Source: a virus. Taken from it: a stretch of 64,000 nucleotides of DNA. Shown one piece after another: positions 5,656 to 62,218 of the stretch. Each line of letters opens with the position of its first letter. Within the stretch, counting starts at the first letter, position 1. The notes beneath the pieces are model-generated. The model was not told where the DNA came from. It did not search any database and saw only the letters and a program-made list of their open reading frames with translations. The position numbers and the translations under genes were made by a program. The DNA is taken from positions 124,001 through 188,000 of IMG/VR virus record IMGVR_UViG_3300042560_001323. One strand, written 5' to 3'.

Positions 5656-6105
5656 TTAGGTTCCACGAAGTCTAAGTTGTCTGGGTTTTGTTACTTTTGG
5701 TTTTGGCAACTTTGATGGTTTTGGTAATCTTTGAGCCTTAGGGATTAATTTTGAATCAAGAGATAATGGAATGTTTGGTTTTTTGGGTTGCATATATTTG
5801 AACTCAAGTTGTTTTGGTTCAATTCGTTTAGATGTTTGCTCTGGGGGTTTTGGTTTTGATGCTTCTCTTTCAGCCTCAACTTGCGCTCTTAAACGAGCCT
5901 GTAAACCAGCAGATACAGTTGTTGCTCCTTGAACTTTATTTCTATTAGTCTCTTCAGCTTCTCTACGTCTTTTTGCAACTGGATGCTCCGGTGGGGCCTT
6001 TTTTGATTCTGCACTTTGTAAATAACGTTCGGCATCTTTAATACCACGTTGACTCGCAAATGCTGGTCTAGGTGCCTCACCCAAAAACTGTTCAAATGTT
6101 TTCAT
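5656..6105 (-). CDS. Putative head-internal protein with capsid-targeting peptide
   Basis: A 149-residue, very basic and proline-rich protein. Its first ten residues, MKTFEQFLGE, followed by A, match the capsid-targeting peptide of T4 internal proteins (MKTYQEFIAE-A) and end in L-x-E, the gp21 prohead protease consensus. The remainder is low complexity and probably disordered (KPKPPEQ..., KPSKLPKPKVTKPRQLRLR), suited to packing with DNA. It overlaps the 415-residue gene upstream by ATGA. I infer that it is packaged in the prohead core and trimmed by gp21. Confidence 0.7.
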   Translation of the reverse strand: MKTFEQFLGEAPRPAFASQRGIKDAERYLQSAESKKAPPEHPVAKRRREAEETNRNKVQGATTVSAGLQARLRAQVEAEREASKPKPPEQTSKRIEPKQLEFKYMQPKKPNIPLSLDSKLIPKAQRLPKPSKLPKPKVTKPRQLRLRGT

Positions 6106-7349
6106 TCTTCTTTCTTATTAGGAAGACCTTTATGCTTAGTCGCGGCAAACTTACGAATTTCTGCCCCGGACATACCATCAACAATTTCTAAAACTTTATC
6201 GCTGACTTTTGAGCGGGAAACTTCTCCGCGCTTAACTGAAAGTGCCAAGCCAAAGATTTTTTGCTGCTGCTCGCTTGTTGCTTTTTCTACAAGAAAGTCA
6301 TATCTTTCAGTCAATTGGCCTAGAGTGCAATCAGAAAGGTCGTAGCCTTCATCCATTAACCGCTCAACCCATTCTCTAAATTCTGGCTTATAGAAAGCAG
6401 CCTTAAGAGCAGCCCCAATTTGTCCACCAAATCCTTTACCTGAGGCTTTTGCTTTTTTGCTAGCTTCTCTTGCCCTAATGTCTCTATCAATTCCTTCTCT
6501 TGCAGATTGGGCTAAAGTTGAAAATACTCCTCTTGTTACATTTTTAAGTTTCTCTTTATTTGCACCGAGAGTTTTCTTGGTTTCAGGTTGCTGGCTTACT
6601 GCAGCTTTAACGGCTTCATCCCCTTTACTTTGAGTCATCCTCTTAGCGAGGACTTCTTTATGTTTTTCCTTACTCTCAGCGTTTAGAGCTTTTCGTTTTG
6701 CCTCAAGAGCCTTAAGTTCAGCGGGAGTTCTTTTAGTCTTAGTTGCTTCAGTAAGAATACTATCTTCGGCAACATAGAGCACATACTCCAGAAACTTTTC
6801 TTCACCAAGATAATCAATAACCATTTCAAGGCCGTGCTCATTTAGACCTTTACTCACAAAATATTCAGCAGCAAAGTTTGAGGTTTCTACAATAAATTCT
6901 TCAGTTAATTCTTGAGTATCAATAATTGCGAACTTTTCAGTAACAGTGGGATTTATAGTAATCTTATTTTTAACTGGCTTTTCTGAAATTTGTTCCCGGC
7001 CAATATCTCTCACCTTCGGTTCTGGTTCAAGTTTTGAGATTACCTCATAGAGGTCATCTCTCCAGCTAGAAAATGACTCCGTTTTCATATCATCTTCTTT
7101 TTTACTCTTTTTCTTTTTATCTTCGTCTTCTGTTGCATCCTTAATTGCTCTATCTTTTACGCCAGCATATTCATCGGATTCATCTTCAACTTCACAGTCG
7201 CCGTCATAATCTTTGCTTTTTTTACCAGTCTTTTTATATTTCTTTTCAAACTTTTCACCGTAATCTTTATCTTCTTTTTCTTCATTAAGAATCTGAGTAA
7301 GATAAATATTTTTCATTTCAGAAAAACCTTGAATAATGCGGTCAGACAT
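6102..7349 (-). CDS. Putative head/core structural protein, 415 residues
   Basis: The N-terminal third is highly charged and repetitive (EKKYKKTGKKSKDYDGD, DEDKKKKSKKEDD). It is followed by a FSSWRDDLYEVI motif that I associate with cyanophage virion proteins, then a helical region with YDL-type capsid-protein sequence. Several L-x-E sites are visible (ILNE near residue 22; ILTE-A near 200), so gp21 processing is possible. It lies directly upstream of an MKTF-type internal protein and downstream of another. A late motif lies about 27 bases before the ATG. The exact role is unknown. Confidence 0.65.
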   Translation of the reverse strand: MSDRIIQGFSEMKNIYLTQILNEEKEDKDYGEKFEKKYKKTGKKSKDYDGDCEVEDESDEYAGVKDRAIKDATEDEDKKKKSKKEDDMKTESFSSWRDDLYEVISKLEPEPKVRDIGREQISEKPVKNKITINPTVTEKFAIIDTQELTEEFIVETSNFAAEYFVSKGLNEHGLEMVIDYLGEEKFLEYVLYVAEDSILTEATKTKRTPAELKALEAKRKALNAESKEKHKEVLAKRMTQSKGDEAVKAAVSQQPETKKTLGANKEKLKNVTRGVFSTLAQSAREGIDRDIRAREASKKAKASGKGFGGQIGAALKAAFYKPEFREWVERLMDEGYDLSDCTLGQLTERYDFLVEKATSEQQQKIFGLALSVKRGEVSRSKVSDKVLEIVDGMSGAEIRKFAATKHKGLPNKKEE

Positions 7350-7374: not shown

Positions 7375-8604
7375 CTATTTAGACTTTTTCTTGCTCTTTC
7401 TATAATTAGTCAAGAAATTTTGAATTTCCTTTGTATTAGTCATCCTCATTGCATACTTACGAAGAGCATCCGTTCCAACTAAACGCTGATCAGAGGGAAC
7501 ACCAGAAACATCTGTCCATTCGGTAATGTCTTTAATCCAAGACTTAAACATCATATTATCTTCTGTGACACAGATAACATAATTTGGGCCGCGTCTTGTG
7601 ATTTTGCCAACTAAGCCGGTATTAAAATTTTCTACAATATCATCAACGTTAAAAATATTATTTTGGTAGTATTGTTCTTTCAAATTTTCGTAATCAAGTT
7701 TAGGGGCAATCCTCCACATTTCTGTAACTGCTCCTTTACTCTCTAGGCCACGTTGAACAGCGTGAAACAAATTCTCCACTTCCCTTTGCGGCATTGTTCT
7801 GGGAATACCGGCTCTAAACTCTGCAAAATCATCAGAAACTGCGGCTTTTCTTAGTTTGGCAGATGACATATTTGTTATATCATCAGTTGAATCTGGGTCT
7901 CTATTACCAGCAGAAACAACTTTAATTTCTGTAAACTTGTAGATATCTTTTTCCGTATTATTATGCTTATTTGCGAGTCGTTCAAACTCTGATACTCTGT
8001 CCGCCCCTACAATAATATTAACTTTTTTAAAGCCATCTTCATAGATGTTTCTCAGAACTTCAAAAATAGTTGTTAATGAACTATCATTAACAATTTTCTT
8101 TTTAAATTCGGGGAACATCTTCCGCATATATTTAATTTTCTGCGGAGGATTTAATGGGTCAGTTGTATTGTTCTGCTGCCTTGATGGATAGATTCTTAGT
8201 TCTCCACCGGATGCAACCTGTTTTGCCGTATCAAAAACTTTTTTGTGTCCAATTGTTGGTGGATTGAATCTTCCCAGGACGATCGTGATTACCTTTTCGG
8301 TTTCCACTTCTGGTGGGGCTTCTTGTTCTTTAGGGGCTGTAATGCCAGGGCGAATTCCGCCTTGAGCCGGTTTAACTTTCGGGGCTTCTCTTTCTGCTGC
8401 TGGATTTATTTTGGCTTCCGGCTTTTCAGGTAACGGAGACTTTTTCTGAATAAACTGAAGGTCACCGCTAACCGTTTGGGCAATAAGTTTTCCGGCGCGG
8501 TCAACCCAACCGCCGTGTTTGTTTGAAATTAGGCCGAGTCTGGAGGCTTTTTCGCTTGCTCGGCTTCCACGGTATTCTAGTAGAAATTCTAGAAATGTTT
8601 TCAT
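7375..8604 (-). CDS. Capsid-targeted nucleotidyltransferase-like protein
   Basis: A 409-residue, three-part protein. Residues 1-10 (MKTFLEFLLE) are a T4-type capsid-targeting and gp21 cleavage peptide. They are followed by a short RGSRASEKASRLGL block. Residues about 105-290 carry a cytidylyltransferase-like Rossmann fold with GRFNPPTIGH (T-x-G-H signature), a VGADR loop and MSSAKLRK, matching the I-S-S-T-x-x-R signature. The C-terminus has a beta-barrel-like segment (GLVGKITRRGPNYVICVTED) seen in cyanophage virion proteins. The substrate is unknown: NMN, CTP or tRNA-related chemistry are all possible. Packaging in the head, and perhaps injection, is inferred from the N-terminus. Confidence 0.78.
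   Translation of the reverse strand: MKTFLEFLLEYRGSRASEKASRLGLISNKHGGWVDRAGKLIAQTVSGDLQFIQKKSPLPEKPEAKINPAAEREAPKVKPAQGGIRPGITAPKEQEAPPEVETEKVITIVLGRFNPPTIGHKKVFDTAKQVASGGELRIYPSRQQNNTTDPLNPPQKIKYMRKMFPEFKKKIVNDSSLTTIFEVLRNIYEDGFKKVNIIVGADRVSEFERLANKHNNTEKDIYKFTEIKVVSAGNRDPDSTDDITNMSSAKLRKAAVSDDFAEFRAGIPRTMPQREVENLFHAVQRGLESKGAVTEMWRIAPKLDYENLKEQYYQNNIFNVDDIVENFNTGLVGKITRRGPNYVICVTEDNMMFKSWIKDITEWTDVSGVPSDQRLVGTDALRKYAMRMTNTKEIQNFLTNYRKSKKKSK
7376..7382 (-). promoter_or_regulatory. Late promoter -10 motif (CTAAATA)
   Basis: CTAAATA on the minus strand, about 27 bases upstream of the ATG at 7349. It overlaps the stop codon of the nucleotidyltransferase gene. Confidence 0.5.
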
Positions 8605-8623
8605 TATATCTGATATTTACTCC

Positions 8624-9379
8624 TTATTTATTAGGGCTTTTGGATTGAATACCAACAACTCTTTGTATCATATTGGTTCCCGTTCTTAGTTGTCTTTGAG
8701 TTACGTTTGCTTCAGTTCTTGATGGGTTTCTTCTGGGACTAATTGAACGTTGCGAGGATTGATTATCCGCTTGAGATGGTAAACGTCTTACAGGTTTTAC
8801 TGGGTTACCTGAGGCTGATTCTGGCGGTTTAGTTGCTTGTTTGGATTTTTTCTTTTCAGTTGGAGCAGAATCTCTTCTAGATAAATTATCAGACTCGTCT
8901 CTACTGTATCTCTGAGATGGGGTTCCACCCACTTTTGCACCAACATTAATAGTTGAACTAATGTTAGGATTGAAAACTTGTGAAGATTTTTGACCAGGCT
9001 TTATACCTTTAAAAGAAGTAGTTGTTGGGGAAAAATCAGATTGTGAAATGAGTGATGAACCTCTCCCAGTTGTAACTTTAGAGTGAGGTTTATTTGGATT
9101 TTCTCCAGCCCTTGCTAAGATTTGATTAGCCGCTGCAGTTCTCCCCCTTTGACCCAATGTTGATAGTTCTCCACCTCTAGGATTCGGTCTATCTTTTTGA
9201 GCACCAGAAGTTGACCGATAGGGATCAACCGCTCTATTTTGTGCTCGTCTTATTTCAATTTGTCCTCTGCGACTCGCTCGTTCTTCTGGAGATAGGGCCT
9301 CATTCAAAATATACTCAAAAAACCACCCTTGTTTTGCTGTGACCCCTGCTTCGGTTAAGAACTCGTCAAAAGTTTTCAT
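8624..9379 (-). CDS. Putative head-internal protein with capsid-targeting peptide, disordered
   Basis: A 251-residue basic protein. The first ten residues, MKTFDEFLTE, followed by A, match the T4 internal-protein targeting peptide and end in the ideal gp21 site L-T-E. A second possible site, L-N-E-A, occurs at about residue 27. The remainder is dominated by Ser, Arg, Gln, Asn and Pro without hydrophobic core blocks and is probably disordered. It is coupled to the preceding gene by ATGA. I infer a prohead-core or DNA-associated protein injected or retained in the head. Confidence 0.7.
   Translation of the reverse strand: MKTFDEFLTEAGVTAKQGWFFEYILNEALSPEERASRRGQIEIRRAQNRAVDPYRSTSGAQKDRPNPRGGELSTLGQRGRTAAANQILARAGENPNKPHSKVTTGRGSSLISQSDFSPTTTSFKGIKPGQKSSQVFNPNISSTINVGAKVGGTPSQRYSRDESDNLSRRDSAPTEKKKSKQATKPPESASGNPVKPVRRLPSQADNQSSQRSISPRRNPSRTEANVTQRQLRTGTNMIQRVVGIQSKSPNK
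8625..8631 (-). promoter_or_regulatory. Late promoter -10 motif (ATAAATA)
   Basis: AATAAATAAGGAG on the minus strand combines a late -10-like motif with a ribosome-site-like AAGGAG, about 21 bases before the nucleotidyltransferase ATG at 8604. Confidence 0.45.
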
Positions 9380-9780
9380 TTTTGTCTTTTAGTTTTTCCC
9401 TTTAATGCTGCACCAACCTTTGCTCGGGCGGAAGGCTGAATTTCGGCTAATCTCCGGGAAATAGACTGAATAGATGAATCATCACCTTTCTGCATTGCAG
9501 TTCGCATTTGCCCGCGAAGTCTCGCAAGTTCTCCTGCAACTTCACTATCTTCAGATGCTTCAACGATAGAATCAATCCATTGCTCGCTCATATTAGCCAT
9601 AAGAACCTGGGCATCTTCAATAGTATCGGCGAAACCTTCACCTAGTAGGTGTTCTAGAACTACGTCGTATAGGTCATATTCGTATGAGGTATTAAGTTCG
9701 CCCACTTCTTCACTAAGAACATCCTGGCGGTAAACATCACCATAAGATTGATATAGTTCCCAAAACTGACTGCCGTTCAT
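9376..9780 (-). CDS. Putative virion/prohead protein, 134 residues
   Basis: It contains YDLYDVVLEHLLGEGFADTIEDAQVLMANMSEQWIDSIVE, a helical block that recurs in marine T4-like virion proteins. A basic C-terminal tail (AKVGAALKGKTKRQK) follows. It is the first gene of the head-internal cluster, with a late motif about 24 bases upstream. It overlaps the next gene by ATGA. No enzymatic motif is present, and membership of the prohead core is inferred from context. Confidence 0.65.
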   Translation of the reverse strand: MNGSQFWELYQSYGDVYRQDVLSEEVGELNTSYEYDLYDVVLEHLLGEGFADTIEDAQVLMANMSEQWIDSIVEASEDSEVAGELARLRGQMRTAMQKGDDSSIQSISRRLAEIQPSARAKVGAALKGKTKRQK

Positions 9781-9803: not shown

Positions 9804-9810
9804 TATTTAG
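9804..9810 (-). promoter_or_regulatory. Late promoter -10 motif (CTAAATA)
   Basis: CTAAATA on the minus strand, about 24 bases upstream of the ATG at 9780 and just after a terminator. It would start a late operon covering the head-internal proteins from 9780 down to about 5656. Confidence 0.55.
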
Positions 9811-9816
9811 AATATT

Positions 9817-9845
9817 AAAAAAGGACAGCGTTTTGCCGTCCTTTT
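9817..9845 (-). terminator. Rho-independent terminator
   Basis: Minus-strand AAAAGGAC / GTCCTTTT stem with a GC-closed inner loop, followed by a T run. It ends the early/middle transcription unit carrying gp41-mazG and separates it from the late head-protein operon. Confidence 0.85.
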
Positions 9846-9847
9846 GA

Positions 9848-35710: not shown

Positions 35711-35890
35711 ATGGATGAGCAAACTTTTTGCAAACAATGTGGCTCTGAAATTGACCCGGACTGTTGTTGGTGTGGTAATTTAATTGAAGGCCATCATTGG
35801 TCTGATGGCCATTTTCCAGTTCCTTGGGGCTGCACCTGTTATTATGTTAATCTGAGCGATTCTTTTGATATTGATTTAAATGACACTTAA
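35711..35890 (+). CDS. 59-residue zinc-ribbon-like protein
   Basis: The start MDEQTFCKQCGSEIDPDCCW is chosen over an ATG ten codons upstream. CxxCG ... CCWCG ... GHHW ... CTC provides enough ligands for one or two zinc ions. Similar treble-clef mini-proteins are common in cyanophage early regions. It overlaps the start of the endonuclease gene by 11 bases. Confidence 0.6.
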   Translation: MDEQTFCKQCGSEIDPDCCWCGNLIEGHHWSDGHFPVPWGCTCYYVNLSDSFDIDLNDT

Positions 35891-37379
35891 AGAAGTAATT
35901 CAAGATAATTGGAGCGGAAGACAATTTATTAGAATTGCCACAAATGCCGGTCTTAAAACTCAGATTGAACAACGAACTTCTTTTCTTGATCTGCATTATC
36001 CAAATATAAAACTAAAACAACGGGCATTTGTTCTTCTGAATGATTTAACAGAGGAACAACTGCCTTATTGTCGTTGTGGTTGTGGTAAAAGGGCCAGTCT
36101 TAATAGAGAACCCGATAAGGGGTTCAGTAAGTATTTTAACGAGGACTGTCATAGAAGATCACCAAAGATTTCTGATGATGCCCTTGAGAAACTTTCTAAC
36201 AAAGAATGGTTATTTGAGCAGCGGGTGATACTTAAAAAAGCCATTGAAACGATTGGCGATGAACTGGGTGTTTCACACGTTTCAGTTGATAAGTGGTTAA
36301 AAAAGCACGGGATTAAACAACTTAAAATTTCAAGAATACGCAATTTAGAAGGTTATAGTGTTATTGATGATAAAGAAAAACTTGTAAATCTTTACGATTC
36401 TGGTTTAACGTGTCAACAAATAGCCGAGCCTTTAAATGTAACAAGGGGCGCTATTGCCAGAACTTTAAAAAGTTATGGGGTTAAATTGAGACCCTCAAAC
36501 TCTTACGAAAGAACTGTTAAGAAAGTCAGTGGAGAAGAGCAAGAACTTATTGATTTTATTGGTGAAATATACAAAGATAAAATCTTAACTTCCAATCGTT
36601 CTGTTCTTAATGGACGAGAACTTGATATTTATTTACCCAAACATAATCTGGCAATTGAGTACAATGGCCTCTATAGTCATTCTTATAAACCTTGGGAAGA
36701 ACGTGAAAGTCTTATTAAGGGACCAAACTACCACTTATCAAAAACCGTTGATTGTGAAAAATTAGGTATTCAACTAATTCACATTTTTAGCGATGAGTGG
36801 AACTACCGGCAGGCAGTTGTTAAGTCTATTTTAAAAAGTAAGTTGGGTATCAATGAACGGATTTATGCTCGTAAATGTTCTATTGTTGAAGTTGATATTG
36901 ATAGCAAGAATAAATTCTTAAATGATAATCATATTCAAGGTGAAGATAAATCCAGTATTAAACTTGGCCTGGAATATGAAGGAGTTCTGATGTGTTTAAT
37001 GACTTTTAATAAGTCAAGATTTAATAAAAAATATGAGTGGGAATTGGTGAGATTTTGTAATGCTGGCGGTATTAATGTTGTTGGTGGGTTCAGTAGATTA
37101 CTGTCTTATTTTAGAAGTAATTTTGGGGGTTCTATTATTTCTTATGCTGATAGACGTTATTCTGATGGTGGGGTGTATTTTAAGAATGGATTTGAGTTGA
37201 TACGTGTTAATAAGCCTGGGTATTATTACGTTGATAAGAACTATTTGATTCGTCATAATAGAATGAAGTTTCAGAAGAAACTTATTGGGGCTTATGATTG
37301 TACTGAGTATGAGAAAGCCAGGGAGATGGGATTTAATAAGATATTTGATTGTGGTAGTTTGAGTTTTGGGATGAATTAA
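35880..37379 (+). CDS. Vsr-like (EDxHD) homing endonuclease
   Basis: A 499-residue mobile nuclease. An N-terminal zinc site (CRCGCG about 64-69, C90 H91) is followed by two helix-turn-helix repeats (IGDELGVSHVSVDKWLKKHGI; IAEPLNVTRGAIARTLKSYGV). The catalytic Vsr-like fold starts at about 220 and includes GRELDIYLPKHNLAIEYNGLY (E247, D249) and GIQLIHIFSDEW. A C-terminal region has ARKCSIVEV, WELVRFCNAGG and SYADRRYSDGG. This matches the I-Bth0305I/EDxHD homing endonucleases. It is free-standing, not in an intron, and abuts an oppositely directed GIY-YIG gene. Confidence 0.88.
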   Translation: MTLKEVIQDNWSGRQFIRIATNAGLKTQIEQRTSFLDLHYPNIKLKQRAFVLLNDLTEEQLPYCRCGCGKRASLNREPDKGFSKYFNEDCHRRSPKISDDALEKLSNKEWLFEQRVILKKAIETIGDELGVSHVSVDKWLKKHGIKQLKISRIRNLEGYSVIDDKEKLVNLYDSGLTCQQIAEPLNVTRGAIARTLKSYGVKLRPSNSYERTVKKVSGEEQELIDFIGEIYKDKILTSNRSVLNGRELDIYLPKHNLAIEYNGLYSHSYKPWEERESLIKGPNYHLSKTVDCEKLGIQLIHIFSDEWNYRQAVVKSILKSKLGINERIYARKCSIVEVDIDSKNKFLNDNHIQGEDKSSIKLGLEYEGVLMCLMTFNKSRFNKKYEWELVRFCNAGGINVVGGFSRLLSYFRSNFGGSIISYADRRYSDGGVYFKNGFELIRVNKPGYYYVDKNYLIRHNRMKFQKKLIGAYDCTEYEKAREMGFNKIFDCGSLSFGMN

Positions 37380-38140
37380 TCTTCTACCTTGAAGACCTTA
37401 TAGCCCTTATATTGCCGCAATTTACCGTGTGCAACATTCGTCATATTACCTTGATCTAGGCCATTTTCCCTGCAGTATTTTGTCAAATTAATTACAATTT
37501 CTTCTTTTCCTTCTGGAGTTATAACTAACCATTTTTTCTGATTTGCCTCTCTAGCCCGTTGTTTTTGAAAATCTGTTTGTGGTCTTCCTAAACTTAACTG
37601 TCTTGTTTTTTCTATTACCTCTTTTGTACGCTTTTTCCCGGTATTAGATTTACTTATTTTTGCCTTTGTTTCATCTGATAATGGTTTTCCTTTTTGGGGG
37701 TGTACGAACATTTCTGAGGCATACATTTTCTTTTTGGTTTCACTCATTTTCTTTTTAGATTCTTCTGAGTGTTTTTTCCCCCACCAATGATGGTCTTCAC
37801 CTTTAAATGATGGTGGCCGCCCTGATTCTAAAATATTTAATAAAATTCCGTTCTCATCAAAGCCGACTCTTCCATATTTTTTTATTTGACTTTCTTCTAA
37901 TAAGTATGCTTCTTCTTCGTTTAAATTTTCTGCAACTTTTGTGATAATTGGTATATTATTATCGTCAATTAAATTTCTAATATATCCATTTAGTCTCTTA
38001 TTAAAAGCATATTCTTTTTTGTCCGTCAGGTGTTGTTTACATCTAGAACCACAACCCTTTCCGATGTAAAATATTCTATTTGTGATTGGATTTATAATGT
38101 GGTAAACATAATATTTGGCTTTGTCTTCGTCTGGCTTCAT
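37376..38140 (-). CDS. GIY-YIG homing endonuclease with NUMOD3 repeats
   Basis: A 254-residue free-standing endonuclease of the Seg type. The catalytic domain has YYVYHIINP and FYIGKG (residues 10-29) and a glutamate helix AYLLEESQIKKYG (about 78-90). Residues 117-190 hold NUMOD3-type DNA-binding repeats (WGKKHSEESKKKMSE; GKPLSDETKAKIS; GKKRTKEVIEKTR). The C-terminal part (NLTKYCRENGLDQGNMTNVAHGKLRQYKGYKV) resembles an IENR1/NUMOD1 helix-turn-helix. It lies beside gp23 and converges with the Vsr-like gene with a four-base overlap. Confidence 0.9.
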   Translation of the reverse strand: MKPDEDKAKYYVYHIINPITNRIFYIGKGCGSRCKQHLTDKKEYAFNKRLNGYIRNLIDDNNIPIITKVAENLNEEEAYLLEESQIKKYGRVGFDENGILLNILESGRPPSFKGEDHHWWGKKHSEESKKKMSETKKKMYASEMFVHPQKGKPLSDETKAKISKSNTGKKRTKEVIEKTRQLSLGRPQTDFQKQRAREANQKKWLVITPEGKEEIVINLTKYCRENGLDQGNMTNVAHGKLRQYKGYKVFKVED

Positions 38141-38232: not shown

Positions 38233-39639
38233 TCACATCAAATTTTGGACGCGAACCCGGCGGTAGTAACGATTAGAGTTAATCAGTAGTCTACCTAGAC
38301 CTTGGTTAGTACCCTCGGCAAATGGGTTAGCAACTAGACCGTAGCGCGTCTTAAAGCCGATCCTCGGGACAAAATTATCCTGACCAACGGCGCGAACCAT
38401 TTGGAGAGGCACATATGGAGCATAAAAAATTCCTGCGTCGTAAGGAGAAGTACCCTTATAACCAACCACATAATACTGGTTGGAATCTACGTTAGCAGAA
38501 TAAGGGTCAATATAAACGCGGAACTTACCCATTAGAACACCAGCAAAAGTATTACCGGTATCATCAACGTTAAGGTTAGCGTTTAGGGCAGGAGTGTAAT
38601 CAAGTACACCAGCCATAGTTAGCGCAGAGGCTACGTCGGCTGAGCACATAATCACGTTACCCTTCCCACGACGAGTACGCTGAGCGATAGCGTTAGCATC
38701 ACGCTCAATCTGGAATAGAAGACCTTTGAACTTCTCAACGGACCAACGGCCATTTGAGTCAACATCAAGGTCAAAAATACCTTGCGTAGCAACGTTAGTT
38801 GCAGCACCCTGTTCAGCCACCTTATAGATGGTGCGGATTACTTCGCGGTTGATTTCAGATAGAATCTCAGTAGAGAGAATATTAGCAAGTTCGGCTTCGG
38901 CACTTAGACCGTGAATAGCCTTAAGGTCTTGAGCAAGTTCAAGAGTGTATTCAGCCTTTAGAGCGCGGCTCTTGGCTTCTACTAGAACTTTCTCAATAGA
39001 GAAGCTCATCTCGTTGAATTGGTCACCGGTGGCATAGCCTAGGGCTTCTGCATCACCAGTTCGCATAGCTTGACCGGTCTGATATGCGAGTGAAGAAGCA
39101 GTACCAACAGGGTTAAGTAGACCAGGGTTAGAACCACTGTTACGATTGTTGGTAGTACCCATACCAACGTTACCATCGGTGAAACCGGCATTAACGTTGA
39201 AGCCGCTATCTTGGCCAGAGAAGGTGGTGTCTACTTCATCAAAGAAGGTTTCAGCACCGCGCTGGTCAGTATAACGTGAGCGCATTGCAAAGATTAGTCC
39301 GGTAGGACCAGTCAGAGGTTGTACGCCAGCGAGGTCATAGGCAACCAGATTAGGCATTGATCGACGAATCAGTGAGATTAGTACAGGGTCAAAACCGGCA
39401 ACTGGGCCGCCAGCAGAGGCGCTGCCGCTGAAACCGCCACTAGTACCGGCAGCATTGCCAATAGTGGGGGCTTCAAATAGCATACCACGAGAAAAGTCTT
39501 GCTCTTCGCGGAGGTAGCGTTCTTGGTTTTCTAGCAGTTGAGCGGTTACATTTCTGCGGTGAGAATCCTTGATTGGATCAAGGCCATCATAGTTGAGAAG
39601 GGGTGACCACTTTTCCTGCAATTGTTCGTTTAGAAACAT
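38233..39639 (-). CDS. 23: Major capsid protein gp23
   Basis: A 468-residue HK97-fold capsid protein. The N-terminal arm (LLENQERYLREE) ends at about residue 56 in the gp21 cleavage site L-F-E followed by A (GMLFEAPTIGN). Family blocks include FDPVLISLIRRSMPNLVAYDLAGVQPLTGPTGLIFAMRSRY, AEYTLELAQDLKAIHGLSAEAELANIL and NVIMCSADVASAL. The end reads YGLVANPF. An AAAGG site precedes the ATG. The gene is followed by a strong terminator. Confidence 0.98.
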   Translation of the reverse strand: MFLNEQLQEKWSPLLNYDGLDPIKDSHRRNVTAQLLENQERYLREEQDFSRGMLFEAPTIGNAAGTSGGFSGSASAGGPVAGFDPVLISLIRRSMPNLVAYDLAGVQPLTGPTGLIFAMRSRYTDQRGAETFFDEVDTTFSGQDSGFNVNAGFTDGNVGMGTTNNRNSGSNPGLLNPVGTASSLAYQTGQAMRTGDAEALGYATGDQFNEMSFSIEKVLVEAKSRALKAEYTLELAQDLKAIHGLSAEAELANILSTEILSEINREVIRTIYKVAEQGAATNVATQGIFDLDVDSNGRWSVEKFKGLLFQIERDANAIAQRTRRGKGNVIMCSADVASALTMAGVLDYTPALNANLNVDDTGNTFAGVLMGKFRVYIDPYSANVDSNQYYVVGYKGTSPYDAGIFYAPYVPLQMVRAVGQDNFVPRIGFKTRYGLVANPFAEGTNQGLGRLLINSNRYYRRVRVQNLM

Positions 39640-39682: not shown

Positions 39683-40828
39683 TCAGTTTTTGCGGAACAT
39701 ATCAGCCGCTCTGAGATATTGTGACATTGAATCTGAGACTGACTCAGGTGAATAGTCATAACCTTCAGAAAGGGTTTCAGTTACCACATGCTGGGATACT
39801 CTACGAGTGGGAAAATAAGATTCCCTTAGAGTTTCCAACTTACCTCTATAAGTTTGCTCACCTTCAAACTCAACACTTTCAGCAAGTGTGGCGAGCTTCT
39901 CTTTCTGAGTGGCCGCTAGACCTTCAGATACTTCATCAAGGATTCTATCCGCAACCGACTCGGAGAGTCTTTGGTTTAGGCGGATATTCTTCTCAATTTG
40001 CTCGTTGAGTTTTTCTTCCATTTCATCTAGTTTTTCTACCATGCCTTCCAGCACATCATACTTTTCTTCAGGCATTTGCACATAATGTTGTTCACAAAGT
40101 CCCTTAAGACCTTCCAGGAAGGACTCGGTAACCTTAACTTTAATACCAGTCTCAACTTGGAGACGGTTTTCTTCTAGCCACTCTTCGGCTACATACTCTA
40201 GATAAGCATCTACACGCTCTTCTAGTTCTTCTTTGATCGTTTCTACTTCTTCAAGAAGTGCCTGCTCGTATTGGACTTCCAGGGCTTCCTTAAGTTGAGC
40301 AGCGCGGGTTTTAAGAGCGGCTTCAAAGATGGTGCGAGCTTTTTCTTGGAACTCTTCAGAAAGTTCTTCGCCTTCCATAAGGGCGTTTACGTCCTCATCA
40401 ACGTTGAACTCTTCTTCATAGACTTCCTCTTCTTCGTCATCTTCATCGTCTTCTAGGTCTTCATCTTCGTCTTCATTTTCCTCTATGTCTTCGTCTTCTA
40501 GAAGTTCTTCATCTTCGTCATCTAGTGATTCCTTAACTGCACCGGATGCAAGATGAGGAGTAGGTTCAGCAGGCTTTGCTCCACGAGTAACTACATCGCT
40601 GACTTTAGAAATACGACCAGCTGGGTCTTTAAACTTTGCCGAATCGTCGTCGTTTTTATAGTTTTCTGGGGTGGGACCACCTAAATCTTCCCAACCTGCG
40701 GTTTGTCCATCTGGAATACCAGTGGTTAGTTTGGGCATAGGTTCAGCAGGCTTTGCTCCACTGTTTACTGCAGTTCTTGACTGAGGATTCTTTGCGTCCA
40801 TTTCTTGTAGATTCTTACCACGAGGCAT
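39683..40828 (-). CDS. 22: Prohead core scaffold gp22
   Basis: A 381-residue scaffold. The N-terminal linker carries two copies of a GAKPAEPxPxL motif (about 24 and 84), followed by a strongly acidic run of Glu and Asp (about 110-150) and then long coiled coils. The C-terminus (YSPESVSDSMSQYLRAADMFRKN) is typical of cyanophage gp22. It is degraded by gp21 during maturation. A late -10 motif and AGGAG precede the ATG. Confidence 0.93.
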   Translation of the reverse strand: MPRGKNLQEMDAKNPQSRTAVNSGAKPAEPMPKLTTGIPDGQTAGWEDLGGPTPENYKNDDDSAKFKDPAGRISKVSDVVTRGAKPAEPTPHLASGAVKESLDDEDEELLEDEDIEENEDEDEDLEDDEDDEEEEVYEEEFNVDEDVNALMEGEELSEEFQEKARTIFEAALKTRAAQLKEALEVQYEQALLEEVETIKEELEERVDAYLEYVAEEWLEENRLQVETGIKVKVTESFLEGLKGLCEQHYVQMPEEKYDVLEGMVEKLDEMEEKLNEQIEKNIRLNQRLSESVADRILDEVSEGLAATQKEKLATLAESVEFEGEQTYRGKLETLRESYFPTRRVSQHVVTETLSEGYDYSPESVSDSMSQYLRAADMFRKN

Positions 40829-40903: not shown

Positions 40904-41551
40904 TCAAATACTATTTAGAAAACTATTAAATAGCTCTAGTTTTTTCTCTTCAAGTTGACGAGATTCTACTAGTTTGTTAATATTTTTCCTGGTATCTTCA
41001 ATAAGCCATTCATTTTTAGTCACATCGTAATACCATTCTCTACCTTCCATAATACCTTCTACAAATGCAGAAGTACAAGAAGGATCGTGAACAATATCTG
41101 CAACAGTTGAGAACATTAGATCGTCTCCTACAATATTTACACCCTCATTGGTTGCTCTTAATGAACCTACCGCTCTTGAAGAAACACCAAAAACGACGCC
41201 TTCTTCGTGAAGGTTTTTTACAATATTACCCATTGGGGTATTAGTGATAGACGCTCTACCATAAAAATCGTTTCCCTTTCTCGTGATAGATTCAATGATA
41301 TGGGACACTCTATCATAGTTAATAGTTGGGGTTGCACTATGACCAAGTTCACCCACTGCTCGTCTTTTATTAACAAAGTTCTCAATATAAAAATTTACGG
41401 CATTATTGAGAACTTGAAAGGGATAAACTCTACCATTTCTATTTTTATTTTCCGCTTGACAAAATACTCCTTCAATATAAAGTTTTTTCTTACCGTTTAC
41501 ACTTTCGGTGAGCATTTTCACATTTTGAGCTTCTTCCGTAAAAAGTTTCAT
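40904..41551 (-). CDS. 21: Prohead maturation protease gp21
   Basis: A 215-residue serine protease (U9/S77 family) that cleaves gp22, gp23 and internal proteins after L/I-x-E. The fold blocks YIEGVFCQAENKNRNGRVYP, AVGELGH (catalytic His) and GVSSRAVGS (catalytic Ser) are visible, followed by VADIVHDPSC. Its presence supports the reading of MKTFxxFLxE termini elsewhere in the window as cleavage peptides. A late motif lies about 24 bases upstream. Confidence 0.95.
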   Translation of the reverse strand: MKLFTEEAQNVKMLTESVNGKKKLYIEGVFCQAENKNRNGRVYPFQVLNNAVNFYIENFVNKRRAVGELGHSATPTINYDRVSHIIESITRKGNDFYGRASITNTPMGNIVKNLHEEGVVFGVSSRAVGSLRATNEGVNIVGDDLMFSTVADIVHDPSCTSAFVEGIMEGREWYYDVTKNEWLIEDTRKNINKLVESRQLEEKKLELFNSFLNSI

Positions 41552-55921: not shown

Positions 55922-56187
55922 TAGTTAGTAAATCCTACTTTATTTGCTTTAATTGCTGAATTGGTGAAAATAACATCCGTTGGATTTTTTTGTAAAAATT
56001 CAACAGAATTTGCAGGAATTGTAAATACAAATGTTGCGGATGCACCAACAGAAGTTGAAATGCTGACTTGAATCGCTCCAGCGGTACTGTTACAGAGCCT
56101 AACGCAGGTTGCAGAGTTAAGGCTAGTAGCAGCCCCGGCAGATGTGGCGGTTGTAATTTCAGTCTCAATGAGTTTAGTGATTTGCAT
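55921..56187 (-). CDS. Small virion structural protein, 88 residues
   Basis: Starts MQITKLIETEITTATSAGAA. It is beta-rich with VRLCNSTAGAIQVSIST and VFTIPANSVEFLQKNPTDVIF. It resembles short jelly-roll-like phage decoration or fibre-linker proteins. A late motif lies about 24 bases upstream. Confidence 0.67.
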   Translation of the reverse strand: MQITKLIETEITTATSAGAATSLNSATCVRLCNSTAGAIQVSISTSVGASATFVFTIPANSVEFLQKNPTDVIFTNSAIKANKVGFTN

Positions 56188-56210
56188 TAGTAAAAATAGT
56201 CCATAATTAT

Positions 56211-56217
56211 TATTTAT
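56211..56217 (-). promoter_or_regulatory. Late promoter -10 motif (ATAAATA)
   Basis: TATAAATAATAATT on the minus strand (full T4-like TATAAATA), about 24 bases before the ATG at 56187. Confidence 0.62.
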
Positions 56218-56221
56218 ATTC

Positions 56222-57451
56222 TTAACGACTAATCTCTTCCCAATCTATGGAAGCGTGAATTTTGGAGTCATTGGAATTAGCTGCAGCCGCCAGGGTTATT
56301 TCAAACGGTGTTTTAGTCAGACTATTTCTTTCTAATTGGAATTTGAAAAGGGCTTCTTTCAAAATGTCTACGTTTGAATTATTCTGATTGGATGCACTAA
56401 AATACCCAGATGCGAGTGTTTTACCGCCGGTAATAGAACCGCCATTAATTTTATACTCAACTGCGGAATCTATTCCAGCGTCAATCCAAGTGCCGCCAGC
56501 CGTAGTTCCACTTGCAATAACTTTCCAATTATAGTTTGAGTTATTAGTAGTGCCCATCATAGAGATAGCGGTCAAAATAACAATGGCATCCAATCTATCT
56601 GGAATAGTTTTTAATCTAAGTGACAATACGGGATACATCATTCCCGCTGTTGGCAGATTAACAGGAACAGTAATTGGAGTTCCAATGGCTTGCTGTAAAC
56701 CTCTTAATTCGTAACCACCTTCTGAGATAACGGTTGAACAAACCTGTTTTAATGTGCTTGAACTTGTAGTTACACCAGTATTGGTAATTTCATATCTAAG
56801 AGGGAGAGATGCTGTTGTCATATAAGTTGCTTCAATCGCATTTGCATGATGAAACGAATGTGCGTGTATTGTTTTTCCGTCTATAATAAATCCTGCTCTA
56901 ACAGTTCCTTCACCTAACCATTCAATGTCGGTCCAGAAAATTTGGGCTTTAGTAATGTCTAACTTTATTCCAGTTGGATTAGATGAACCTACACCAGTTA
57001 AGGTATCAACATTCCAAGCAGATTGTGGAACTCTATTTTCTGAGAGAATTCCAGTAACGATACTGCGTTCTACAATGTTTACTATATCTCCATTCAATTC
57101 AAAGTAAATTCCATTATCTACCCCAAAATAACCAATTCTTTGCCTAAGATTTTCCTTTGGATGATTCATAACGCCAGTATTGTCTATAGTCAAACCTTTT
57201 CCGGGTTGATACGAAAATACTTTCGTTGTTTCTCGGATAATCTGACAGGTAGAGCCGACACCAACTGTAAGCTCAATTAAACCCTGATTTTGATTAAATG
57301 AGTATGTGGTTCCTGCTCCAGTTGCAAGAGTTGACCAGAGATTATTGTCTCTATAACGATAGCTAGAATCAAATAAAGTTAAAGGATTAGAAACTTTTAG
57401 TCGTCCAAAAGCATCGTATAAATTTTGACTAGGAGTAAATAAATATGACAT
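56222..57451 (-). CDS. Virion structural protein, 409 residues
   Basis: The start MSYLFTPSQNLYDAFGRLKV is chosen because it overlaps the previous stop as TAATG; an ATG five codons earlier is less likely. The opening NLYDAFGRLKVSNPLTLFDSS is characteristic of cyanophage structural proteins. The rest is beta-rich with FIIDGKTIHAHSFHHAN and PLRYEITNTG, like carbohydrate-binding or fibre head domains. Probably a tail-fibre or neck protein. Confidence 0.75.
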   Translation of the reverse strand: MSYLFTPSQNLYDAFGRLKVSNPLTLFDSSYRYRDNNLWSTLATGAGTTYSFNQNQGLIELTVGVGSTCQIIRETTKVFSYQPGKGLTIDNTGVMNHPKENLRQRIGYFGVDNGIYFELNGDIVNIVERSIVTGILSENRVPQSAWNVDTLTGVGSSNPTGIKLDITKAQIFWTDIEWLGEGTVRAGFIIDGKTIHAHSFHHANAIEATYMTTASLPLRYEITNTGVTTSSSTLKQVCSTVISEGGYELRGLQQAIGTPITVPVNLPTAGMMYPVLSLRLKTIPDRLDAIVILTAISMMGTTNNSNYNWKVIASGTTAGGTWIDAGIDSAVEYKINGGSITGGKTLASGYFSASNQNNSNVDILKEALFKFQLERNSLTKTPFEITLAAAANSNDSKIHASIDWEEISR

Positions 57452-58227
57452 TAAACTATTCTCCAACCATTATTGTAAATAAATGTAAGCGAACCATAGT
57501 CAAAACCGATAACCGCTTTATCTTTTCCATCAACTGTATCTGCGCTTGTGGGAATTACTGTAATGTAACGATTTGCTCCTTTAGATGCTTGGCCTAGCTC
57601 ATCCTTGACAACATAACAAGTTCCATTTTCAACATTACCCGGAAGCGTTATCGTTACCGCTCCGGGATAGTTTACTCCAATATAGTAATCAGTTAACTGA
57701 ACCACGTGTGCTGCAGATGTTACAGAAACGGTTGCATAACGAATTCCACTGCTTCCTGGATCGGCACCCTCCCATTTTTTTGTTGTATCGTTGTAACGAA
57801 GAAACTTATTATTGACTTTAACTGAGTTTCTATCAACATCATCTAAAAATTCTAGGCGAGTTTCCCCGCCGCCACCTATAGTTGAAAGTTGCTGTTGTAT
57901 TCTTGCCAAAAATGACTGATAATGCTTTTGAAAAGCCTCAACAGTCATAAAGTTCTGATTAAGAGGAGTTAAAGGATCCTCATTTTTTGTATTAGTTGGC
58001 TCAGCGAGAAGTCCTAATGATTTCTCTATTAAAGATACTTCTTCTTTAATTGGCTCAATCTTTGGTTTCGATTTTATTGTTTTAGTCTTTCTTTTTGGTT
58101 TGGCTTCCTCCAGTAAAGGCTTAACAAAAAAATCATCAAAAGAAGTGGAAACTAATTCTTCTACTTCTTTTTGTTGTATTTTTTTTTCTTTACTTACAGC
58201 CTCAAAGAAATCTTTGAGTTCGCTCAT
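57451..58227 (-). CDS. Virion structural protein with helical N-terminus and beta tip, 258 residues
   Basis: Starts MSELKDFFEAVSKEKKIQQK. Residues 1-95 are charged and helical, with a Lys-rich linker (KPKRKTKTIKSKPKIEPIKEE), and a short coiled coil lies at 95-120. The C-terminal part has LDDVDRNSVKVNNKFLRYNDTTKKWEG, a short motif repeated in many phage fibres. GAVTITLPGNVENGTCYVVKDE and a DTVDGK loop follow, typical of fibre tips. It overlaps the 53-residue gene by ATGA. Confidence 0.72.
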   Translation of the reverse strand: MSELKDFFEAVSKEKKIQQKEVEELVSTSFDDFFVKPLLEEAKPKRKTKTIKSKPKIEPIKEEVSLIEKSLGLLAEPTNTKNEDPLTPLNQNFMTVEAFQKHYQSFLARIQQQLSTIGGGGETRLEFLDDVDRNSVKVNNKFLRYNDTTKKWEGADPGSSGIRYATVSVTSAAHVVQLTDYYIGVNYPGAVTITLPGNVENGTCYVVKDELGQASKGANRYITVIPTSADTVDGKDKAVIGFDYGSLTFIYNNGWRIV

Positions 58228-58385
58228 TCATCCTCTGAACCATTAAAGAGTGAAGTAGAAACTTCGGGAACTAGTGCATCAACTTTTTCCATTGCCTTAT
58301 CCTTAATGATATCCTTGATAAGGTCACTAATTTGTGCCGGTGATTCGTCTGCTGCAATCAAATCAAGTAGGTCTTGGTCTTCCAT
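58224..58385 (-). CDS. 53-residue prohead-core-like protein (gp67-like position)
   Basis: Starts MEDQDLLDLIAADESPAQIS and is acidic and helical: DLIKDIIKDKAMEKVDALVP ... TSLFNGSEDE. It lies directly after the portal gene, where T4 encodes prohead core gp67, and similar short proteins are found there in cyanophages. The gp67 link is by position and composition only. A late motif lies about 23 bases upstream. Confidence 0.65.
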   Translation of the reverse strand: MEDQDLLDLIAADESPAQISDLIKDIIKDKAMEKVDALVPEVSTSLFNGSEDE

Positions 58386-58407
58386 TTTGTTATAAATTAA
58401 CTAAGTC

Positions 58408-58414
58408 TATTTAG
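58408..58414 (-). promoter_or_regulatory. Late promoter -10 motif (CTAAATA)
   Basis: CTAAATAGAC on the minus strand, about 23 bases before the ATG at 58385. It overlaps the end of the portal gene. Confidence 0.5.
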
Positions 58415-61400
58415 ATTTCCCCGCCCTTAGGCATTTTGGGTTCTTTGGGTTTAATATCCGGTTCTACGGGAACTTTACCAGATTGACCTTTTATGTTGTT
58501 ACCCGCGCTAGAGGCTGCTGTGGGGCTCTGTGGGGTGGCTGCAGTGCCTTCTGGTGGGACCATACCCACTTCTATGGGTAAACCAGTTCGTGGGTCAACT
58601 GGTGCATTTGGGTCGGGAATAATACCGTCTTCAATCTCCTTTGCCATAATTTCATCTTGCTCAATAATCTCCTCATCAGTCTGACGAAGAATCTTGCGGC
58701 GCAAATAATCTTGTGAGAAATATCTTCCAACATAAGGCTCTGCCATAGATGCCATATTGAGCCTTTCGGTGAAGAGTTCAGATTCCTTAAGTTCAGCAAA
58801 GTGATTATCATATAGAAAGTCAAACTGAATATGTTCAGCCATTTTTTTCCAGTCTTCTGGCGTTACGATATTCTTCAGTAAAAGTTGGGTTCTTAGGAGA
58901 TCAATAAAAAGTTGAGAGAAGCGTTTGCGGAGTCTTCCCACAAATTTTGTGAACTTAACTTCATCTCTGAGGATTTCAGTTGAACGGCCAAGGTTAAATC
59001 CACTATCTCCGCCGATGCGAGTCTCTGGCACATTTAGTGCCTTATATAGATTACGTTTGAAGTAATCTAAATCGGACAATTCGCCAAGACTGCTATTTTT
59101 AGTATAAATGCCACAGGAAAGAGCAAAGGTGTGATAGTTATGAATAGACTCGTCTGAATCAATAGTTAATGTTCCAACTTCAATTTCATCAGTTAGATAT
59201 TCAATATTTGTAATAGTATGGTTATAAAATTTAGTTTCCATTCTAAAATGATGCCAGTTTTTGTAACCAAAATCTTTAACCATATTCCTAACAATATTTA
59301 CTGTAAACCCATTGGAGACGTTTACATTTGGGATAGACTTGTTAGCATTAAGTTCGCTGAAAAGATTCCGCATTGAAATATTTTCATTGAGCATATTGCA
59401 TACGTCAATTGCCTTAACTTGATGTGTGGTTTTTCCAATAACTATATTTTTTACGAACTCGAAATGTGAACGGGAAACTGCAACTTTTTGTCGCTCTTGA
59501 TGATTCTCTTTATATTGTCTTGCATAAACTGGGTCACTAAAGCGCATCTGCGAAGACTCTCTACTTCTGTTTGCAGCTTCTTCCTTCATTTCTTCAGTCC
59601 AACTATTTCGTATTTGTTGTCTGAACCATTCATTGTAATCTGGGTCTTTTAATTTCTCCTGAAGGGATTCTGATGCACCCTCAAGATTTTTTATAGAGGT
59701 TTCAATCTTCTTCTCTTTTTCATCCTCTGTGAGATTTTTAAAATGATTAATCTGACTGTTTTTTATGTTTAAACACCATTCTTCTCGTTTTTCGGGAGTA
59801 ATTGTTTCCCAGGTTCTTTTTCTTGCTTCAGAAGCCCGCTTCTTATATTCAAGGTAGAGTTCTGGATTAGTTTCTTTTAAGGATTCAAGAAACAGTTTCT
59901 TGATTTTATTGATTTCTTTTGAATGATAATGAATATGGTCAAAATGACCCATAAAGCATAGATTATCTGGGTTATTATTAAAACGGTTTAAATCAATGTG
60001 ATGAATGGTTTGTTTTGGTTCATTTTTGTCCTCATAGATGAAATCATTACAGTAAGAGCCTTTACAGCGATTTGCAATTAATCTATGGGTGAATTTCCAA
60101 GTTTTATCAACATTATCATAAATCATTTCATAATCTGAAGAACTCTTGCTGATTTTTTCCTTCTTCCTATGAAGAGGGATCATACTTTGTCCTACAGTCA
60201 AATCCTTTGCCTCAACAAAACCCAGGTCATAAATTGGGAACTTGTGGTCGTAAGTGCATACAAAGCTCTCATCGTTATCAAGAGTAATCTTTATAACCTT
60301 TGCACTCTTTTGTGTTACTCCGGCCCAAGAAATCAAACCCGGCGCAAACTCACCAGTTGAAGGATGACAAGAGTAAGTCCAAAGTTGCTCACCATTTTTC
60401 ATTTCGGACTCAATCTCTGAAATTGTCAATTCTCTTCCATCTAGTAGAGACACTTTTGTATCCATTGATAGACAGCCCGCCGGTAAGGTGGTAACCTCAG
60501 TTCCGCGACCACCTTCTCTACGGGGGAACCAAAAGTCTTCCATAAGACTCATAAACTTACGAGAAGTATCTACCTCACCGGTAAGGCTATTGTAGTTCAT
60601 CTTATTACGATACTTCATCATCTGCTCACGAAGGAACTGCTCAGCCTTGGGTTTTGGTAGATTACCTACGTCAATATAGAAAATTCTTTTTTCTGAACTT
60701 CTACTGAGACGATAAATGACTACACTATCTTCAATCATTCTAAGTTGATTGAGAACTTTGATTGCTTTATTAAGATATGAAAGGGATGTCCCCTTATTTC
60801 TATCAACCAAGCCCGAGGTACAATATGCGATGGATTCTTTTGTAAATTTGATTCCCTTTTCCGCACCAGCGGTCATACCTGCTGCACCTACTGGATATGT
60901 TTGTTTGGGACTATAAACAAAATATTCCTCAAGTTCTGGGAAAACTTGTTCATTTGGCCCTTGATCTCCATACATTTTTGGACCAAGAATATCTTTCTTT
61001 TGCTTTTTCGCTTGACGAACATAGCGAATTTTCATTGCATCCACATACCGAATATCTTGAATTCCAGCGTGTGGGTCTTTAATGTCAATTAGTTTATGAT
61101 AATAAAGCCGCCCATCAATATACCAGTTCCTAAAAATTTCGTGAGACTTTTTATCAAAATCGAGCATTTCAAGAATTGCTTTAAATTCCTGACGAATCGC
61201 ATTTTTAATTCCATCACTTGCATTAAGATTAGAAAGTTCAATCTCAATTGGAGAATCGTTTGTATCCGATACAATTGCCTCGTTTACAATATCTTCAATG
61301 GCGCTATCAACTTCGTGATGAAGCGCCATTTCCCGATAACGTTTGATTAAATCAAACTCTGTTCTATAAACACCTTCAACATCAACATAAGAACCAAAAA

Positions 61401-61518
61401 AGCCGGTTGTCAAATAATGATCGGAACCATCATCATTATTAGGGGGGACCGGCGAAATTATATTTTTAGATAATTTTTTATCGTTATCTTCAATAGAAAA
61501 TCCAAATAATCTAGCCAT
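58411..61518 (-). CDS. 20: Portal vertex protein gp20, interrupted by an in-frame intein
   Basis: A 1035-residue precursor. The extein portions (1-348 and 809-1035) make a 575-residue portal that forms the dodecameric DNA channel and nucleates the prohead. Markers are YRTEFDLIKRYREMALHHEVDSAIEDIVNEAI, RIFYIDVGNLPKPKAEQFLREQM and PRREGGRGTEVTTLPAG. After the insert come LGELSDLDYFKRNLYKALNVPETR and VGRLRKRFSQLFIDLL. The intein lies exactly between TTLPAG and SSLGEL, where other gp20 proteins read on without a gap. A late motif lies about 26 bases upstream. Confidence 0.97.
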   Translation of the reverse strand: MARLFGFSIEDNDKKLSKNIISPVPPNNDDGSDHYLTTGFFGSYVDVEGVYRTEFDLIKRYREMALHHEVDSAIEDIVNEAIVSDTNDSPIEIELSNLNASDGIKNAIRQEFKAILEMLDFDKKSHEIFRNWYIDGRLYYHKLIDIKDPHAGIQDIRYVDAMKIRYVRQAKKQKKDILGPKMYGDQGPNEQVFPELEEYFVYSPKQTYPVGAAGMTAGAEKGIKFTKESIAYCTSGLVDRNKGTSLSYLNKAIKVLNQLRMIEDSVVIYRLSRSSEKRIFYIDVGNLPKPKAEQFLREQMMKYRNKMNYNSLTGEVDTSRKFMSLMEDFWFPRREGGRGTEVTTLPAGCLSMDTKVSLLDGRELTISEIESEMKNGEQLWTYSCHPSTGEFAPGLISWAGVTQKSAKVIKITLDNDESFVCTYDHKFPIYDLGFVEAKDLTVGQSMIPLHRKKEKISKSSSDYEMIYDNVDKTWKFTHRLIANRCKGSYCNDFIYEDKNEPKQTIHHIDLNRFNNNPDNLCFMGHFDHIHYHSKEINKIKKLFLESLKETNPELYLEYKKRASEARKRTWETITPEKREEWCLNIKNSQINHFKNLTEDEKEKKIETSIKNLEGASESLQEKLKDPDYNEWFRQQIRNSWTEEMKEEAANRSRESSQMRFSDPVYARQYKENHQERQKVAVSRSHFEFVKNIVIGKTTHQVKAIDVCNMLNENISMRNLFSELNANKSIPNVNVSNGFTVNIVRNMVKDFGYKNWHHFRMETKFYNHTITNIEYLTDEIEVGTLTIDSDESIHNYHTFALSCGIYTKNSSLGELSDLDYFKRNLYKALNVPETRIGGDSGFNLGRSTEILRDEVKFTKFVGRLRKRFSQLFIDLLRTQLLLKNIVTPEDWKKMAEHIQFDFLYDNHFAELKESELFTERLNMASMAEPYVGRYFSQDYLRRKILRQTDEEIIEQDEIMAKEIEDGIIPDPNAPVDPRTGLPIEVGMVPPEGTAATPQSPTAASSAGNNIKGQSGKVPVEPDIKPKEPKMPKGGEI
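59095..60474 (-). mobile_element. Intein with HNH homing endonuclease inside gp20
   Basis: 460 codons. Block A begins with Cys1 (CLSMDTKVSLLDGRELTISE). Block B is CTYDHKFPIYDLGFVEAKDL, with the T-x-x-H motif. The central HNH endonuclease has HHIDLNRFNNNPDNLCFMGHFDHIHYH and is followed by repeated basic helices (NUMOD-like: RKRTWETITPEKREEW ...). Block F/G is VGTLTIDSDESIHNYHTFALSCGIYTKN, ending in Asn before Ser+1. The penultimate residue is Lys instead of the usual His. Protein splicing is predicted to restore the portal. Confidence 0.93.
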
Positions 61519-61543
61519 TAATAAAGTTTACCTTTGTTTGACT

Positions 61544-61550
61544 TATTTAG
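61544..61550 (-). promoter_or_regulatory. Late promoter -10 motif (CTAAATA) for gp20
   Basis: CTAAATAAGTC on the minus strand, about 26 bases before the gp20 ATG at 61518. Confidence 0.52.
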
Positions 61551-61551
61551 A

Positions 61552-62178: not shown

Positions 62179-62218
62179 TTTAGTTTTGAGACCTCCGTTT
62201 TTATTAGTTAGTTATAAA

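Follow-up and report, generated by a model that had tools for sequence, protein, structure and literature searches.

A probable internal head protein of a T4-like cyanophage, with a nucleotidylyltransferase domain behind a T4-type capsid-targeting sequence

The first ten residues of the bacteriophage T4 internal protein IPIII suffice for packaging, and in such a capsid-targeting sequence (CTS) positions 4 and 7 act mainly in targeting and positions 8 and 10 mainly in the control of processing (PMC9026906). In the T4 record, ipII and ipIII both start with MKTYQEFIAEA. A 'cytidyltransferase' is a core gene of very abundant ocean phages and recurs in virion proteomes, where authors have guessed between cargo and contamination. 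S-SM1 virions contain T4-GC190 (PMC3037559), S-SCSM1 virions contain the nucleotidyltransferase (NT) homologue ORF91 (PMC9602691; also a GenBank note) and S-CREM2 virions the NT homologue ORF154 (PMC10665884). The S-PM2 homologue was undetected in the S-PM2 virion (PMC3037559). The authors of the S-SCSM1 study have pointed out that mass spectrometry alone cannot tell a packaged protein from a carried-over one, and have suggested that the enzyme may enter the host, proposing it to be an NMNAT (PMC9602691). This injection idea came with no targeting-tag mechanism. Neither the S-SCSM1 paper (PMC9602691) nor the S-CREM2 paper (PMC10665884) mentions a targeting sequence, and the terms 'cyanophage' and 'capsid targeting sequence' occur together, in the literature available, only in a T4 history (PMC9026906). 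No evidence of injection for any cyanophage was found in that literature. Both the protein family and its presence in virions were known before; what appears to be new, in the literature available, is the targeting tag described here, together with its conservation and its use for prediction. The tag offers a mechanism, predicts a cleavage site and gives an easily applied rule by which more injected enzymes can be sought; it also makes it directly testable what cyanophages inject besides DNA.

The DNA analysed here (the window, 64,000 nucleotides) runs from base 124001 to base 188000 of a viral contig of 243,166 bp, and the rest of the genome was screened by pattern and by region. T4-like core genes are present, including those for a DNA polymerase, UvsX, MazG, a DnaB-type helicase at the gp41 position and proteins of the gp20, gp21, gp22 and gp23 types. 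Because its closest matches are to myoviruses of Synechococcus (B23, S-SM2 and S-SCSM1 among them), the phage is classified by sequence as a marine T4-like cyanomyovirus. The first-pass annotation had described a nucleotidyltransferase domain fused to a capsid-targeting peptide, with the strand unstated. An open frame occupies exactly the coordinates that it gave and lies on the minus strand; AGGAG precedes its ATG, and the plus-strand reading contains stops throughout. The frame and its parts are as follows.

7375..8604, minus strand: CTS-tagged nucleotidyltransferase gene, encoding a basic protein of 409 aa (pI 9.5)
8575..8604, minus strand: capsid-targeting sequence MKTFLEFLLE, residues 1-10, with a predicted gp21 cut after E10 (LLE/Y)
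8449..8574, minus strand: small module LGLxSxxHGGWxD..G, residues 11-52 (model pLDDT 81-94)
8299..8448, minus strand: linker, residues 53-102, of low confidence in the model (pN/pS 0.95)
7732..8298, minus strand: nucleotidylyltransferase (NT) domain, residues 103-291, from PF01467, phrog_395, the model and fold matches
8245..8274, minus strand: GRFNPPTIGH, the (H/T)xGH motif, residues 111-120
7846..7869, minus strand: MSSAKLRK, the SxxxxR motif, residues 246-253
7507..7716, minus strand: C-terminal small beta-barrel module, residues 297-366, from a phrog_4808 match and the model

The word 'fused' is a fair one, as tag, small module, linker, NT domain and C-terminal domain share a single open frame. 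Alignment shows that the small module is missing from short marine homologues. In the genomes searched, phrog_3561, considered as a second gene sharing this N-terminal module, finds just the NT gene itself. The linker is probably disordered, judging from the model. From residue 297, the model places a small five-stranded barrel followed by a basic tail. Because the barrel is a separate small gene in S-PM2 and S-CAM4, and because in DSL-LC03 the CTS is joined straight to the barrel without an NT domain, it is, by gene arrangement, an independent unit. Foldseek returned weak small beta-barrel/KOW/Tudor-like matches for it, none at E <= 0.001. The stand-alone barrel genes S-PM2p144 (L004 7327-7602), S-CAM4 gp096 (L177 3034-3291) and their relatives are annotated as 'ribonucleotide reductase alpha subunit/NrdB', a label that looks wrong.

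The protein begins with MKTFLEFLLEY, which matches the N-terminus of T4 ipII and ipIII and has the makings of a CTS, namely about ten N-terminal residues in which positions 4 and 7 serve targeting and positions 8 and 10 processing. A degenerate DNA pattern encoding M-K-x-[aromatic]-x-x-F-[hydrophobic]-x-E was fixed before the T4 sequence was fetched. It has 3 matches in the window, where 0.00 are expected (0 in 100 shuffles). The 243-kb genome has 6 matches and a set of 15 phage genomes has 29, and the reversed control gives 0 in each case. In two stretches of T4 (32 kb, including ipI-III and head genes) it picks only ipII and ipIII. The shuffles and reversed controls rule out a chance match of the tag, and the pattern match together with these counts confirms the earlier view that the first ten residues look like a prohead delivery and cleavage tag.

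The tag is conserved across the family. At the T4-relevant positions (4, 7, 8 and 10) it is present in 141 of 146 sampled homologues from viral contigs, a rate partly biased by selection on homology, and in 23 of the 3958 other open frames of those contigs; 5 of the 146 homologues miss the strict pattern. M1, K2, F4, F7 and E10 are near invariant. When 54 sequences are aligned by codon, F7 and E10 are unchanging (one sequence is gapped at E10) and F4 is rarely replaced (by L), while their codons vary. The pN/pS ratio is 0.31 for the tag and 0.41 for the NT domain, and the linker value marks its variation as neutral. These patterns indicate that the tag is selected at the protein level. It is retained in homologues without the linker and small module, and is also found in distant cluster-C proteins of S-B68, S-N03 and S-CREM2. 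A motif so short could be an accidental N-terminal resemblance on an ordinary cytosolic cytidylyltransferase, but the control counts, the conservation in the family, the specificity in T4 and the virion proteomes discussed below make this very improbable.

The NT gene belongs to a cassette with two further tagged genes, and the phage encodes a head-maturation machinery of T4 type.

9804..9810, minus strand: CTAAATA late-promoter-like box, 23 nt ahead of the first cassette gene
9376..9780, minus strand: first cassette ORF, 134 aa
8624..9379, minus strand: second CTS-tagged ORF, 251 aa, pI 11.1, MKTFDEFLTE/AG
6102..7349, minus strand: cassette ORF of 415 aa with a C-terminal DUF3008 and its own CTAAATA box at 7376-7382
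5656..6105, minus strand: third CTS-tagged ORF, 149 aa, pI 10.6, MKTFEQFLGE/AP
40904..41551, minus strand: gp21-type prohead protease (PF03420 E 1.7e-35; phrog_207)
39683..40828, minus strand: gp22-type scaffold with 11 [ILV]xE/[AGS] cleavage-like sites
38233..39639, minus strand: gp23-type major capsid protein with a candidate cut LFE/APT at residue 56 (LTE/AEI in T4 gp23)

The second tagged ORF has no homologue in the phage collection. A terminator-like hairpin at about 9817-9846 directly precedes the first CTAAATA box. On the minus strand, 11 of the 17 CTAAATA copies lie 15-60 nt before ORF starts (at actual distances of 18-52 nt), against 0.65 expected and with 0 of 2000 shifts reaching this number; the raw count is not above chance, and it is position alone that is. 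The box also stands before gp21, gp22 and portal, and reads as a T4-type late promoter of this phage. The prohead protease on which a CTS system depends is encoded by the same phage, and it can be aligned with T4 gp21, with the GEL.H and GVSSR blocks conserved. It would be expected to cut the tagged protein after Glu10. The residue following Glu10 is Ala in 101 of the 141 tagged homologues and Tyr in the window ORF, so that the predicted clipping may be poor in this copy because the position holds Tyr rather than Ala, Gly or Ser. As separate observations on the head-gene region, two homing/HNH endonuclease genes adjoin the major capsid gene (35880-37379, plus strand; 37376-38140, minus strand), and the portal (gp20) gene (58411-61518, minus strand) is interrupted by an intein-like insertion, about 460 residues long and spanning residues 349-808 of the protein, with C...KN/S ends and an HNH endonuclease match.

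The tag also agrees with the contents of virions. The NT homologues of S-SM1, S-SCSM1 and S-CREM2 carry the CTS in 3 of 3 cases. In S-CREM2 the pattern marks two genes only, the NT gene and the SAM lyase ORF6 (PF23780 E 2e-19), and ORF6 was also detected in the virion (PMC10665884). This second enzyme cargo shares the CTS with the window protein but is an unrelated enzyme. S-SCSM1 has one further tagged gene, ORF30, which is not annotated as a virion protein. In these three phages, 4 of the 5 tagged genes are thus detected in virions, with a chance of 0.0055 at genome-wide detection rates; the sample is small, and the calculation takes no account of how large or abundant the proteins are. The S-PM2 homologue, undetected in its virion, is untagged. 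Detection in virions could partly reflect abundance. The earlier proposal that the phage packages the enzyme is strongly supported by the conservation of the tag, the late-type promoter box and the virion proteomes of tagged homologues, and packaging of the window protein is very likely.

The enzyme is untagged in S-PM2, P-HM1, S-CAM4 and jumbo phages. Because S-PM2, P-HM1 and S-CAM4 keep it without the tag, it can also act within the cell that produces it. An auxiliary metabolic role there, with packaging as a side effect of tag or abundance, would suit these untagged members and the status of the family as a cyanophage core gene that often lies near gp41 and MazG. Such a role is unlikely to be the main one, as selection acts on the tag at the protein level, only a minority of members have lost it, and a late-type box precedes the cassette.

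We consider it probable that the gene encodes an internal head protein of a T4-like cyanophage, with a nucleotidylyltransferase cargo that is injected and active in the host. The tagged protein would be made late in infection and, as with T4 IPII and IPIII, be anchored in the prohead core by its first ten residues. Clipping by gp21 after Glu10 would free the basic enzyme, which would remain with the packaged DNA and accompany the genome into the next host. Before phage gene expression begins there, the NT domain would attach a nucleotidyl group to a small molecule; by analogy with the structural neighbours of the domain, this group is probably AMP and its donor ATP. The ten-residue N-terminal logic is that of T4 IPII/IPIII and Alt (MKTYQEFIAE and MKTFLEFLLE), and a basic protein, a gp21 protease in the genome and a late-type promoter box are common to the IPII/IPIII system and this locus. 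In contrast, the cargo here is a nucleotidyltransferase-fold enzyme and that of the T4 IPs and Alt an inhibitor or an ADP-ribosyltransferase, the P1' residue of the window copy is Tyr, and injection is plausible here by analogy with the T4 internal proteins. Since the tag matches that of T4 and relatives sit inside virus particles, delivery into the host together with the DNA is probable.

The signatures GRFNPPTIGH and MSSAKLRK, read previously as those of a nucleotidyltransferase, are intact. The protein matches PF01467 (CTP_transf_like) with 26.9 bits against a curated cut-off of 21 bits (E 6e-6) and phrog_395 'cytidyltransferase' with E 1e-86. The profile score, the (H/T)xGH and SxxxxR motifs and the matching fold place it in the HxGH nucleotidylyltransferase superfamily. 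The full-length profile match and the synteny near gp41-MazG place it in T4-GC190/phrog_395, of which S-SCSM1 ORF91 is also a member; identity is about 36-49% in records covering nearly the whole protein, and nothing major distinguishes the window protein from the family. G111, R112, F113, N114, P116, T117 and H120 are invariant in a 26-sequence alignment, and the active-site positions H120, S247 and R252 do not vary among 65 divergent sequences. Most of the NT region is modelled with pLDDT above 90, and nucleotidyl transfer by this domain is probable. The protein could instead be packaged for a structural or DNA-organising purpose, its NT domain a passive basic filler or head component whose chemistry is irrelevant after entry. 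It is basic like the T4 IPs, with a basic tail and a small beta-barrel module that recurs alone. The invariance of H120, S247 and R252 and the pN/pS of the NT domain argue against this purpose, which we regard as quite unlikely.

The substrate of the enzyme delivered in this way is a separate matter. Foldseek gives Synechocystis NadM (2qjo) as the top PDB match, with NadD, PPAT and archaeal NMNAT also among the best. The fold does not pick a substrate, because VIA-align of residues 103-291 gives Z of about 13 for NadM, NadD, NMNAT and PPAT alike, with PPAT and NadD tying or leading. Thus, the comparison with NadD/NMNAT structures suggested in the first-pass annotation bears out the NT fold, but NMNAT, NadD and PPAT are inseparable by it. 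The family profile found no convincing match among PDB sequences, the best being a UPF0348 protein (E 0.05) and an NMNAT (E 0.46). Membership of the true NMNAT families was rejected, as NCBIfam TIGR01526 scores 15.5 against a cut-off of 341 bits and TIGR00482 16.6 against 112 bits. No family of the PADLOC anti-phage defence profiles matched at E 1.

A more specific form of the favoured explanation is a virion-delivered, NadM-like NMN adenylyltransferase that tops up NAD+ at entry, either to counter immunity that depletes NAD or to supply phage enzymes that use it. It would agree with the top Foldseek match and with the NMNAT proposal of the S-SCSM1 authors (PMC9602691). The window protein has the fold of NadM-type NMNAT (PDB 2qjo) and archaeal NMNAT, shares the motif blocks GRFxP..H, NP[FL] and SA..xR with the phage's own NadM, and comes from a genome that also has NAMPT, NADAR and macro-like genes. 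However, it lacks a Nudix domain, falls below both NMNAT cut-offs and has its own mid-domain signature, VGxDRxxEF..., with a family-specific SAGxRDxD at the place of NadM's FPQW. NadD and PPAT score equally well, an NMNAT-Nudix gene of NadM type is already present separately in the genome, and NAMPT is present in 3 of the 10 genomes searched and missing from 7, so that an NAD salvage partner is not the rule. Given the failed cut-offs, the separate NadM and the lack of NAMPT in most genomes with the tagged enzyme, NMN is a candidate and not a conclusion. NMN or another NAD-type mononucleotide is a possible but doubtful substrate, and NAD+ supply at entry is correspondingly a tentative reading. 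The earlier interpretation therefore stands for the NT fold, the tag and the packaging, and its suggestion of action on host nucleotides, NAD or tRNA is unproven.

Several observations concern the surroundings of these genes. An NAD/ADP-ribose locus at 56000-63500 of the genome, outside the window, carries the NadM-type NMNAT-Nudix, NADAR, macro-like, DUF1937 and NAMPT genes, and an intein-like insertion, about 320 residues long, breaks its NAMPT frame. In several relatives (L003, L006, L072), a DUF6267 gene (T4-GC71) lies directly upstream of the NT gene; its KWDGAP motif, read in S-CAM1 and L072, is reminiscent of KxDG ligases, and in S-PM2 part of DUF6267 is fused to the NT domain. DUF6267 is missing from the source genome and is thus not an obligate partner.

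More broadly, the T4-type CTS might be a general delivery code in marine cyanophages, preloading virions with enzymes that reset host NAD, SAM or nucleotide pools at entry, which we offer as a speculative possibility. The cargo would then comprise the nucleotidyltransferase, the SAM lyase and possibly ADP-ribosyltransferase-like proteins, and the pools would be reset before host immunity or restriction acts.

Other tagged frames were also seen. Three more CTS-tagged ORFs (77, 213 and 45 aa) lie in a row at 223.7-224.7 kb of the same genome (L076 3706-4711); the 77-aa ORF, the only one of the three searched, has no homologue in the phage collection. The same genome has an IS605-type OrfB/TnpB-like transposase ORF (L076 801-1997, minus strand), judged by eye from its translation. 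CTS-tagged small proteins of related phages (L202 288-752; L206 1616-2083 and 2080-2625) weakly resemble ADP-ribosyltransferase/PARP or RNA 2'-phosphotransferase (PF00644 E 0.13, phrog_5470 E 0.003) and may parallel T4 Alt. A CTS-tagged family of 106-109 aa is conserved in L201, L203, L205 and L209; the L201 copy matches phrog_1742, and in S-SCSM1 the family (ORF30) lies in the structural-gene region.
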